Source of the DNA: Zhaonella formicivorans
GTDB lineage: Bacteria; Bacillota; DUOV01; Zhaonellaceae
Reading direction: 5' to 3'
DNA: 64,000 bases
NCBI RefSeq assembly: GCF_004353525.1
Contig: NZ_CP085524.1
Location: forward strand, 1,064,001-1,128,000
Part shown: piece after piece, positions 9,349 through 45,345 of the stretch
Layout: every line of letters starts with the position of its first letter
How positions within the stretch are numbered: the first letter of the stretch is position 1
The notes under the pieces: model-generated
Seen by the model: the letters and a program-made list of their open reading frames with translations, nothing else
Database searches by the model: none
What the model was told of the DNA's origin: nothing
Program-made: the position numbers and the translations under genes

Positions 9349-9372
9349 AAAGAAAAAGACCGCAGCCGGTCT
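9346..9372 (-). terminator. Terminator hairpin on the left flank of the mobile element
   Basis: AGACC and GGTCT (9357-9361 and 9368-9372) form a short stem; on minus it is followed by TTTTTCTTTTC. It is probably the original codY transcription terminator. A near copy of the same hairpin lies at 9780-9796 on the other side of the inserted element. Confidence 0.7.
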
Positions 9373-9779
9373 CAGCTTGAAGACAAAGCGCGCATGTATT
9401 ACTTCGCTCTGGACAAGCTCCTACGCCTTTGACCTTTGGCAGAGCCGCCAGCCTTGAGGAAACCAGTCCCGCTCCATAATACATGCGGGCTAATAATAGT
9501 TTGTCGACAGACACCCATGCTGCTGTGCAGCACCATCAGAAGAATGAAAAATTGTAACCCATTGTGTGTAGCTGCGACATATGACAAGCCATAGAGCGCT
9601 CTGTGAAGAGTTTGACTGTAAGCGGCCGAGCAGCATGGACGCTGCGAGAGCGCTGGAGTGGCATGGACGCCGCGTCAGCGCGTGCCGCTGGAAGTCAAAC
9701 GATGAGCAGAAGCAGCGCTCTTGGCGAAGTCATCCCGGAGCAGCAGATACAAGGGTTAACATTTTGAGGGTAGTCTGAA
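9373..9779 (+). mobile_element. MITE-like hairpin element, copy 1 (composite)
   Basis: A non-coding segment of about 407 bases. Its body (9547-9766) is related to the reverse complement of 43774-43992, including a 37-base identical block at 9567-9603. The body has inexact terminal inverted repeats (AAAATTGTAACCC at left, a two-mismatch counterpart at right). Inner arms pair as well, so the whole body can fold into one long imperfect hairpin. The outer ends are CAGCTTGAAGA and GGTAGTCTGA. Relative to copy 2 there is an extra segment (9391-9546) holding another inverted repeat (GCATGTATTA near 9392 with its complement near 9477) and a 20-base block, 9489-9508, that in copy 2 lies at the opposite end. 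No protein is encoded; short ORFs inside have no coding character. Confidence 0.7.
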
Positions 9780-9800
9780 AGACCTTCAACCGGTCTTTTT
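9780..9800 (+). terminator. Terminator hairpin on the right flank of the mobile element
   Basis: AGACC and GGTCT (9780-9784, 9792-9796) with a seven-base loop, followed on plus by TTTTTCTT. It matches the left-flank hairpin at about 14 of 17 positions with one gap. Read together, the two look like a diverged duplication of one bidirectional terminator. Confidence 0.65.
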
Positions 9801-41879: not shown

Positions 41880-43247
41880 TTATTTGAAAAAGGGAAAATT
41901 AAATCCACCTTTTTTGCTCTTTTTCTTTTGCTTTTTGACTTGGCTAGCCATGCCGCCAAACTGCCGCATTAATTTTTGGGCCTCGCTGAATTGTTTTAAA
42001 AGCCTGTTGACGCTTTGGACGCTTGTACCGCTTCCCGCGGCAATCCGGCGCTTTCTGCTGCCGTTTATTATATCGGGTTTGCGCCTTTCTTCCGGAGTCA
42101 TAGATTTAATTATAGCTTCGGTATGAACTAGCTCTTTTTCATCTACCTGCAAATTCTTGAGCTGTTTGGCGCTTCCCAACCCCGGGAGCATGCTTAACAA
42201 ATCTTCCAATGGCCCCATGGATTTCATTTGTTGTAATTGTTCCAGGAAATCTTCCAGGGTAAATTGCTGCTGCAGCAGCTTTTTTTCCATCTCCCGGGCC
42301 TTTTCTGCATCGAAACTTGCTTGCGCCTTTTCAATTAAAGTCAGGACATCACCCATGCCTAAAATTCTTGAAGCCATACGCTCCGGGTGAAATGGTTCCA
42401 GAGCATCCATTTTTTCTCCCATACCGGCAAACTTAATGGGGCATCCTGTCACCGCTTTAACAGAAAGCGCGGCTCCACCCCGGGTATCGCCGTCAAGCTT
42501 AGTCAGGATGACTCCGTCCAAACCTAACTGCACATTGAATGTTTCAGCTACATTTACTGCGTCTTGTCCTGTCATGGCATCAACTACCAGCAGGATTTCG
42601 TGGGGATGTACTTCTGACTTAATTGCTTGCAACTCAGCCATAAGCTCTTCGTTGATATGCAGCCGTCCGGCAGTATCTATAATTACTGTGTCGTTGCCGT
42701 AGCTTTTAGCATGTTCGACTGCGGCTTTTGCAATATCAACAGGGCTTTGCTTATCCCCCATGGTAAATACAGGTATGTTTAATTGCTGACCAAGTACCTG
42801 TAATTGTTTGATAGCCGCAGGACGGTAAATGTCTCCTGCAACCAGCAGCGGTCTTTTGCCCTGCTTGCGCAGCAAATTAGCCAACTTACCGCAGGTGGTA
42901 GTTTTCCCGGCACCTTGCAAGCCAACAAGCATGATGACGGTAGGAGGCCTGCCGGCAACAGTCAGCCTGCTTTGAGTTCCTCCCATTAACTGCGTTAGCT
43001 CATCATTGACAATTTTGATCACTTGCTGCGCCGGCGTTAAACTTTGCAGCACCTCTTGGCCCACAGCCCTTTCTTTAACTCGGGCTATGAAATCCTTGAC
43101 CACCTTAAAATTAACATCAGCCTCCAAAAGAGCTAATCGTACTTCACGCATTGCCTCGTTGACGTCATTTTCGGAAAGTTTTCCTTTACCTTTTAGTTTT
43201 TTAAAAGTATCCTGGAGTTTTTCCGCTAAGCTGGAAAAGGCGGACAT
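41880..43247 (-). CDS. ffh: Signal recognition particle protein Ffh
   Basis: GTPase that binds signal peptides and SRP RNA. The 455-residue protein has an N domain (1-90), a G domain with [15 protein letters not shown] near residue 105, [13 protein letters not shown] and [14 protein letters not shown], and a methionine-rich M domain with the SRP-RNA motif [18 protein letters not shown]. It ends in a lysine-rich tail. Together with ylxM, ftsY and lepB it makes up the secretion set of this window. Confidence 0.98.
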
Positions 43248-43265: not shown

Positions 43266-43613
43266 TTACTCCTCAGCAAATGATAAGAGCTGTTGCATTA
43301 GTTCTTTTGCTTCTGTAATTTTACATGGATCTTTTCCGGCTGCTTCCAAAAGCACTATTGCCTTTTGAATAATTTCTTTTTCCTGTAGGTGCTTTTTTAA
43401 AATCCCCAACCTCTGTTCATATTCCTCGAGGGTGGTTTCTGCCCGCCGGATAATATCATGTACAGCCTGCCTGCTTATGCCGTACTCTTCTGCTATTTCC
43501 CCCAGGGATAAATCCTGATTGTAATATAATTCAATTATTTTTTGCTGCTTGGGAGTTAAGAGTTTACCGTAAAAATCATACAACCATGCCACACGGGCAA
43601 TCTTTGGCAGCAT
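43266..43613 (-). CDS. ylxM: SRP-associated helix-turn-helix protein YlxM
   Basis: A 115-residue protein with a sigma-70 region-4-like helix-turn-helix: LTPKQQKIIELYYNQDLSLGEIAEEYGISRQAVHDIIRRAE. YlxM binds SRP in Streptococcus and modulates its GTPase. First gene of the ylxM-ffh-rpsP run, with a near-consensus promoter upstream. Confidence 0.93.
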   Translation of the reverse strand: MLPKIARVAWLYDFYGKLLTPKQQKIIELYYNQDLSLGEIAEEYGISRQAVHDIIRRAETTLEEYEQRLGILKKHLQEKEIIQKAIVLLEAAGKDPCKITEAKELMQQLLSFAEE

Positions 43614-43651: not shown

Positions 43652-43656
43652 ATTAA

Positions 43657-43685
43657 ATATTACCTTATAAGGTATCCCGTGTCAA
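43657..43685 (-). promoter_or_regulatory. Promoter of ylxM-ffh with embedded palindrome
   Basis: On minus: -35 TTGACA (43680-43685), a 17-base spacer and -10 TAATAT (43657-43662). A perfect 14-base palindrome, TACCTTATAAGGTA, fills the spacer and touches the -10, a typical place for a repressor. Confidence 0.8.
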
Positions 43686-43717: not shown

Positions 43718-43741
43718 AAAAAAAAACAGCCTTCCGGCTGT
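43718..43741 (-). terminator. Terminator hairpin on the left flank of element copy 2
   Basis: ACAGCC and GGCTGT (43726-43731 and 43736-43741) form a six-bp stem; on minus it is followed by nine T. It is probably the original mtaD terminator. A near copy of the hairpin stands at 44012-44026 on the other side of the inserted element. Confidence 0.8.
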
Positions 43742-44011
43742 CCAGACCGTCGACAAACTATTATTAGCACTCTAAAAATTGTAACCCTCTTGTACCGCTG
43801 CTCCGGGCTGACTTTGCCAAGAGCGCTGCCCTGCTCAGAGTTTAACTTCCAGCGGCACGCGGTGACGCGACGTACTATAGCTTCACCGCTCTCGCGGCGT
43901 CCGTGCCGCTCGTCCGCTTCCAGTCAAACTCTCCGCAGAGCGCTCTATGGCTTGTCATATGTCGCAGCTACAGACAAAGAGTTACAATTTTTGCATTTTT
44001 CTACAAGCTGA
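43742..44011 (-). mobile_element. MITE-like hairpin element, copy 2
   Basis: A 270-base non-coding element in opposite orientation to copy 1. The body (43774-43992) has terminal inverted repeats AAAAATTGTAAC (43774-43785) and GTTACAATTTTT (43981-43992). Inner arms also pair, for example GCCAAGAGCGCT near 43816 with AGCGCTCTATGGC near 43939 (one bulged base), giving one long imperfect hairpin. It shares a 37-base identical block with copy 1 (43936-43972) and a 20-base block (43749-43768). The ends on minus read TTCAGCTTG and GGTCTGGA. Together with its flanks it occupies the whole gap between ylxM and mtaD apart from the ylxM promoter. No ORF of credible coding character. Confidence 0.75.
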
Positions 44012-44026
44012 ACAGCCTATCGGCTG
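44012..44026. repeat. Right-flank hairpin of element copy 2
   Basis: CAGCC and GGCTG around TATC; over the 14-base hairpin it matches the left-flank hairpin at 12 positions. Interpreted as the other half of a target duplication. It is five bases past the mtaD stop codon on minus. Confidence 0.65.
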
Positions 44027-44031
44027 CCGTC

Positions 44032-45345
44032 TTACGCTCCGCTGATTCTCTCTGCCCGCTCTTGTACTTGTTTGCAGATTTCCCTTACATCAAATCCTAC
44101 CGGCTTACCGGAACGCACCAAAATATTGCCATCAACTATCACCGTATCTATGTCGGAGGACTGGGCCGAATATACTAGATGTGCTAATACATCATGCCGC
44201 GGGTAGAGATGAGGTTTGTCGAAATTGAATAAAATCACATCTGCCAGCATCCCCGGTTTTAGCATTCCTACTTTATCCTGCATGCCTAGAGCAGCAGCGC
44301 CGTTCTTTGTTGCCATTTCCAATGCTTGGTAGGAAGTAACCGTCGTGGGATCCATGGTATGGACTTTATGGAGCAGAGCAGCCGCACGCATTTCTTCCAG
44401 CATATCCAGGTTATTATTGCTCGAGGCACCATCGGTTCCCAGGGCTACCGGTATACCCGCGCAAAGCATGGCAGGCACGGGAGCTATGCCGCTGGCAAGT
44501 TTCATATTGCTTTCGGGGTTGTGGGCAACGCCCACACCTTTGTTTTTAAGAATTGCAATGTCACCCTCTGTGACATGAACACAATGAGCAGCCAAAGTGG
44601 GAAAACCGAAAATCCCCACCTCATCCAAGAGCTGCACAGGACTCTTACCGTATTGTTTATTAATCTGGGCAACTTCTACCGCTGTTTCTGCCACGTGAAT
44701 ATGAATTCCCACATCGTATTTTTCCGCCAGAGCCATAACCTTTTCCAAATAAGTCGGAGGACAAGTGTAGGGCGCATGAGGTCCTAACATCGTAGTAATC
44801 CTTCCGTTGGCTCTGTCTTGCCAGCTTTCCACAAATCTCTGGCTTTCTTCCAGAGCAAGTTCCGCATTTTCACCTATGCCGATCATTCCCCGGGATAAAC
44901 AGGCACGGATACCGCTTTCCTCCACCGCTTTGGCCACATCATCCATAAAAAAATACATATCAGCAAAAGTTGTAGTCCCGGATAAAAGCATTTCCAAGAT
45001 GCAGAGTTTGCTGCCCCAGTATACGTCTTCGCCTGTTAGTTTGGCTTCCAGCGGCCAAATTTTATCCTGGAGCCACTGCATAAGTGGCAAATCGTCAGCA
45101 AAGCTTCTGAGCAACGTCATGGCAGCATGGGTGTGGGCATTGATAAACCCCGGCAGAGCAACCATATTGCTGCCATCGATAATTACCTCAGCCGGCCAGT
45201 TTGGGTCGACACTGCCAACAGGCCCCACCGTTTTCAATAGATTACCTTCAATGGCAATTTCCCCTGTATAGTACAAATCACCGGGTTCATCCAAGCTTTT
45301 CACCATTGGTACTAGTGTGCAATTTTTAATCAGGATCCTGCTCAT
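44032..45345 (-). CDS. mtaD: 5-methylthioadenosine/S-adenosylhomocysteine deaminase
   Basis: Amidohydrolase that deaminates SAH, MTA or related adenosyl compounds, part of SAM by-product recycling. The 437-residue protein has the metal pair HTH in GFINAHTHAAMTLLRS (residues about 66-68), then HIHVAET, AAHCVHVTEGD and the catalytic Asp in LGTDGASSNNNLDM. Lies alone between ftsY and the ylxM operon, its usual location being variable. Exact substrate preference cannot be read from the sequence. Confidence 0.93.
   Translation of the reverse strand: MSRILIKNCTLVPMVKSLDEPGDLYYTGEIAIEGNLLKTVGPVGSVDPNWPAEVIIDGSNMVALPGFINAHTHAAMTLLRSFADDLPLMQWLQDKIWPLEAKLTGEDVYWGSKLCILEMLLSGTTTFADMYFFMDDVAKAVEESGIRACLSRGMIGIGENAELALEESQRFVESWQDRANGRITTMLGPHAPYTCPPTYLEKVMALAEKYDVGIHIHVAETAVEVAQINKQYGKSPVQLLDEVGIFGFPTLAAHCVHVTEGDIAILKNKGVGVAHNPESNMKLASGIAPVPAMLCAGIPVALGTDGASSNNNLDMLEEMRAAALLHKVHTMDPTTVTSYQALEMATKNGAAALGMQDKVGMLKPGMLADVILFNFDKPHLYPRHDVLAHLVYSAQSSDIDTVIVDGNILVRSGKPVGFDVREICKQVQERAERISGA

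Follow-up and report, generated by a model that had tools for sequence, protein, structure and literature searches.

The repeated elements that interrupt transcription terminators in the 64-kb window (the whole stretch of DNA analysed here, bases 1064001-1128000 of a genome of 3.31 Mb in a single contig) are MITEs of the IS1182 family, and the duplicated hairpins on their two sides are target-site duplications, an identity that was absent from the earlier note on this DNA. With a probability of roughly 0.87, such a MITE would have been inserted by a transposase whose attack is directed at the 5′ feet of a hairpin or cruciform that has been extruded, so that the terminator is kept. Full-length IS1182-family transposons in many other bacteria duplicate hairpins likewise and probably choose their target by DNA shape and not by sequence.

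The clearest locus lies between a mtaD-like amidohydrolase gene (44032..45345, minus strand) and a downstream ylxM-like gene (43266..43613, minus strand), which is followed by an ffh-like gene (41880-43247); these names were assigned by reading the sequence. A MITE of 268 bp (copy 2, ‘B’ type; 43743..44010, minus strand) has entered the terminator of the mtaD-like gene. It is bounded by CAG...CTG, with the left end CAGCTTGTAGAAAAA at 44010 and the right end TTTGTCGACGGTCTG at 43743, in agreement with the ends T|CAG...CTG|A that had been read from the sequence before. The proximal target-site duplication (44011..44028, minus strand; hairpin CAGCC-GATA-GGCTG) lies a few bases past the mtaD stop codon, and the element end now occupies the place of its U-tract. 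The distal duplication (43725..43742, minus strand; terminator hairpin CAGCC-GGAA-GGCTG) is followed by nine T on the minus strand (43718-43726), was matched by a terminator scan on that strand (stem 43743-43724, 8 pairs) and folds with -11.6 kcal/mol. The previously described identity of 12/14 between CAGCC(TTCC)GGCTG at 43727-43740 and CAGCC(TATC)GGCTG at 44013-44026 was reproduced, and extending the comparison out to the element ends gives 15/18 identical positions between AACAGCCTTCCGGCTGTC (43725-43742) and AACAGCCTATCGGCTGCC (44011-44028). Just past the distal terminator copy and directly 5′ of ylxM-ffh, we also observed a promoter-like TTGACA-17-TAATAT sequence (43656-43685, minus strand).

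Two relatives of the same family, G002 and G001, carry mtaD orthologues (76% and 71% identical, respectively); in both, the element is missing and only one terminator hairpin separates the gene from ylxM. The earlier note had proposed looking for single-copy terminators in relatives, and the mtaD hairpin is indeed single in both. The empty site of G001 holds one hairpin, GGCAGCCGTTAGGCTGCC, whose 14-base CAGCC..GGCTG core is one base off the proximal and two bases off the distal hairpin of copy 2, which indicates that one terminator was turned into two around the element.

The other MITE of the window (copy 1; 9373..9777, plus strand, 405 bp) belongs to the ‘A’ type and carries a second, nested repeat near its right end. 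Its target-site duplications, AAAGACCGCAGCCGGTCT (9355..9372) and AAAGACCTTCAACCGGTCT (9778..9796), have the same stem and different loops, and the hairpin at 9355..9372, which lies downstream of a codY-like gene, resembles a terminator on the minus strand. As the earlier note had recognised, this hairpin is unrelated to that of copy 2, each copy being flanked by a hairpin of its own. The view that copy 2 is a second copy of the same element holds for the ends, which are common to both, but not for the interiors: copy 1 is the 144-bp type plus the nested repeat (405 bp) and copy 2 is of 268 bp. The second repeat spans 9510-9773, starts with AGACxCCCATGCTGCTG, ends with TTTTGAGGGTAG and also stands alone elsewhere (loci L012-L017, L019). 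Since its core is common to the interior of copy 2, the B-type MITEs appear to be chimeric, combining A ends with a second-repeat core.

About 50-70 related copies are present in the genome. A search with the core of copy 1 (44 matches) and searches with both ends yielded 52 delimited elements of 139-463 bp, all without a transposase. Their ends are constant, CAGCTTGTAGACAAA on one side and, read inward from the other, CAGACCGTCGACAAA, and form short terminal inverted repeats around unrelated interiors, which identifies the elements as MITEs. The copies thus combine shortness, high copy number, terminal inverted repeats, lack of a transposase and, in 40/52, a target-site duplication. By size, 31 of the 52 are of 139-144 bp (type A; average pairwise identity 83%) and nine of 199-203 bp (A plus an insert), while several are of about 265 bp (type B, as copy 2) and several of about 405 bp. 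The 144-bp type folds strongly (-69.8 kcal/mol, z = -8.3). Five loci (L010, L037, L040, L043, L046) contain a REP-like palindromic insert, GGGGACA...TGTCCCC. In G001, the A-type interior is matched without the ends at 34 places (L103, L106, L109, L112, L114, L117 and others); among 11 of these interior copies, 8/39 pairs have two-sided changes and 96% of cells are paired, and this interior is possibly a separate structured repeat.

Comparison of the flanks across all copies, which the earlier note had proposed as a check, bore out the duplication. Using a gapped score and the 99.9% level of mismatched pairs as threshold, we compared the 52 true left/right pairs with 2652 mismatched pairs; 40/52 true pairs exceeded this level and 39/52 exceeded every one of the controls. 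The median score was 16 for true and 5 for mismatched pairs, which reached a maximum of 10.5, and chance, judged unlikely before from two copies, was thereby excluded. At the junction itself, 40/52 copies on the left and 50/52 on the right adjoin a hairpin of 6 or more pairs, whereas such a hairpin is found at 19% of random positions in the window; in 47/52 the hairpin is followed by a T-run or preceded by an A-run. Almost all copies lie within a rho-independent terminator stem-loop. The proposed terminator-targeting element, with the local terminator duplicated around each copy, is hence upheld by duplicated flanks, junction hairpins and T- or A-runs alike. Each locus has flanking hairpins of its own, which match across the two sides of one copy; varying from locus to locus, they are a property of the target and not of the element. 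In this genome, exact duplications of at least 8 bp are limited to 9/52 copies, and a significant duplication is absent in 12/52, which we read as old, truncated or recombined copies.

A matching transposase was not found when the complete genome was searched with the protein of a full-length element from another genome (L173, see below), so that we infer the mobilising enzyme from the ends. Four PF13751 matches in this genome are distant and have other ends. Likewise, inspection of all unpaired ends and of the PF01609 and PF13751 matches revealed no autonomous copy in this genome; one candidate (L080) turned out to be a truncated copy when read through. An IS1634-family element was rejected as the source, its ends differing from those of the MITE. 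This element (L172, 106-2115) is flanked at one copy by direct repeats longer than 40 bp, a different kind of long duplication. An IS1182/IS5-like element was also rejected: its ends, GAGCTAATTGCG.../...AAAAAGCTC, are not those of the MITE, and about 5 bp of its flanks match. These searches revealed no IS1182 transposase in the genome that could act in trans, as would be required of an active MITE only. Given the lack of a detectable transposase, the 9/52 exact duplications and the A-type identity of 83%, the MITE copies of this genome look like remnants of past activity.

Full-length elements with the same kind of ends were identified in other genomes. When 398 genomes of the phylum were scanned with the end motif, 67 matches were obtained in this genome, 68 in G038, 66 in G252 and 51 in G118, compared with 0-2 for the reversed pattern; within the class (3 species), the exact 15-base right-end pattern matched in this genome only. 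In G234 (locus L173), facing ends 1733 bp apart, with the terminal inverted repeat CAGACTGTAGACAAA, enclose a protein of 498 aa, and the flanks are an identical 22-bp palindrome, AAGCCGTGGATATCCACGGCTT, a perfect duplication. The protein matches the NCBIfam model IS1182 with 453.6 bits (cut-off 270), along with PF13751, PF05598 and PF01609; a sequence search found no solved structure resembling it. G038 holds about 34 full IS copies, mostly of about 1595 bp. The 15 copies fetched are mostly of 1594-1596 bp with ends CAGCTTGTAGACAAA / CAGACTGTCGACAAA, and 14 of them are flanked by perfect whole-hairpin duplications. These ends are the closest to those of the MITE, identical over 15/15 bases in CAGCTTGTAGACAAA and 14/15 at the other end, and the 486-aa ORF of this IS appears by eye close in sequence to the L173 transposase. 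The terminal inverted repeats of the MITE therefore match those of a transposase-encoding IS1182 element. MITE-like copies in G118, G252 and G233 also show hairpin duplications. At L208, L229 and L307, full IS copies have unrelated hairpins on their two sides, traces of recombination between copies and possibly of genome inversions.

We counted the IS1182 loci of named genomes that have both ends recognisable (n=55); loci at contig ends or without recognisable inverted ends (e.g. L194-L198) were left out of the statistics. The duplication is exact in 52/55 and has a single mismatch in one, and in two loci the hairpins on either side differ from each other, as is expected after recombination between copies. 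A non-redundant set of 74 exact duplications, from 27 named organisms, G038 and this genome, consists of palindromic stem-loops without a sequence consensus, 73 of them with a terminator T- or A-run. They are 16-35 bp long (mean 25.0, sd 3.9), and Watson-Crick pairing over the outer 8 positions amounts to 93% at the exact centre versus 21-35% at shifts of 1-6. On average the cut lies 1.9 bases (sd 1.0) outside the first G/C. Pairing goes on outward beyond the cut at 51/74 sites, so that many cuts fall a few pairs short of the outer limit of the longest palindrome that could form. The duplication starts with AAG in 24/74 and AAA in 15/74, and its first position is A in 63/74. In most DDE transposases, the distance between the active sites fixes the length of the target duplication. 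A length of 16-35 bp that follows the hairpin is strong comparative evidence that the target structure sets the cut.

In the mechanism that these patterns suggest, an IS1182 transposase, not found in the genome today, would have bound both MITE ends and recognised its target through a hairpin fold, the simplest candidate being a cruciform formed by extrusion of the terminator palindrome. The DDE transposase would join the 3′ ends of the element to mirror-image positions on the two strands, and gap repair would copy the hairpin, leaving duplicates on both sides. Insertion costs the proximal hairpin its U-tract but spares that of the distal one, so that termination is predicted to be moved downstream and not lost; with the T-tract on the distal copy, the upstream gene should still end in a terminator, 150-400 nt further downstream. 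Terminators that are preserved in this manner would make such sites safe landing places. On balance we lean towards a widespread IS1182 branch that would recognise the four-way junction formed when a terminator extrudes as a cruciform, and would join the element to the 5′ feet of both hairpins, the duplicated segment always being exactly the hairpin. If true, insertion by this shape-choosing branch would keep the terminator working and thus provide a built-in harmless landing, unlike that of the hairpin-deleting IS1272 branch.

The nature of the folded target admits another reading, in which the same IS1182 MITE and the same cleavage at the hairpin feet apply, but the hairpin is single-stranded, in a lagging-strand gap or on the non-template strand of a terminator during transcription, and not a cruciform in supercoiled duplex. 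A hairpin in single-stranded DNA would fit almost as well as a cruciform, and the T- or A-run at 73/74 sites is in line with terminators, where a hairpin coincides with paused or terminating transcription and an exposed single strand. We nevertheless consider it possible and not likely, as duplication of a whole hairpin needs a mirror-image cut on each strand, which a cruciform offers directly and a hairpin on one strand does not. It is improbable that the transposase instead reads a sequence motif in the duplex, such as AAGC...GCTT or a T-tract, and that the symmetry merely reflects terminators being palindromic. The starting bases of the duplications given above, with their preference for A, would suit such a motif, but a duplication length that tracks the hairpin and a centre exact to a single base are unlike a duplex reader with fixed spacing, and the stem sequences have little else in common.

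Very unlikely is the view that insertion is random and that selection spared only the low-harm copies at terminators. Terminators are tolerant sites, and a terminator survives the insertion; yet selection offers no way of centring the duplicated segment on the hairpin to the single base, and such centring is seen in nearly all of the young, exact copies across many species. We regard it as scarcely credible that the flanking hairpins are the element's own terminators or chance matches. A hairpin does stand on both sides of nearly every copy, as that reading would have it, but the hairpins differ between loci while matching within a copy, with 39/52 pairs beating all mismatched ones, and in a relative the mtaD hairpin stands alone, with no element; the differing hairpins and this empty site refute it. 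A cruciform or hairpin cut at its 5′ feet by an IS1182 transposase thus remains our preferred reading.

The large and clean set of natural insertions from many species provides a test bed for shape-directed DNA integration, and suggests how a transposon reaches tens of copies without breaking genes or the control of read-through. For genome annotation, doubled terminators around 140-1750 bp of sequence mark such elements.

Long variable direct repeats are listed for the IS1182 family in ISfinder. Among the closest counterparts of the MITE are the IS1182-family elements of Bacilli and Clostridia with ends like TCAGACTGTAGACAAA (among L193-L272, and in G038), which have the same ends, target and duplication rule; unlike these transposase-encoding IS, the MITE is a transposase-free derivative of 142-463 bp. 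In IS1272 and TnSha1, IS1182-family elements of staphylococci, the target hairpins, some of which are confirmed terminators, are deleted without duplication (PMC5678879, PMC4923244). The likeness extends to an IS1182-family transposase, short inverted repeats and hairpin-forming targets that are unrelated in sequence, several of them terminators. Unlike with IS1272, which removes the hairpin and makes no duplication, the whole hairpin is here retained and duplicated, so that one IS family has two outcomes. Within the portion of Wan et al. 2017 covered here (PMC5678879, Fig 13), three outcomes are drawn, and pathway b, an attack at the 5′ foot, would duplicate the stem-loop; that portion holds no example of such a duplication. 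Some IS1182 members target palindromes according to the review of Siguier et al. 2015, as cited in PMC5678879 and PMC4923244. In the open-access literature, we found only this kind of model for duplication and no paper describing an IS1182 MITE or the duplication of a whole hairpin.

Bacterial MITEs in general, as described in a review (PMC10969869), are likewise short, intergenic, strongly folding and without a transposase, with terminal inverted repeats; the term IS1182 is absent from that review, and the portion covered here describes no hairpin-duplicating MITE. No Rfam match at the gathering threshold was obtained in the 64-kb window, and a group IIC intron or other Rfam RNA was rejected on this basis. 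Group IIC introns are RNA retroelements that home to terminator hairpins and insert adjacent to them without duplication. The MITE resembles them in its homing to terminator hairpins and differs in that its ends are DNA inverted repeats. The PATEs of Haloquadratum (PMC3119063), which derive from IS605-type elements and have neither inverted ends nor a target duplication, are also palindrome-associated, transposase-free mobile repeats. Inverted ends and long duplications contradict the definition of a PATE or IS200-IS605 derivative (PMC3119063), and unlike in PATEs, the palindrome here belongs to the target.
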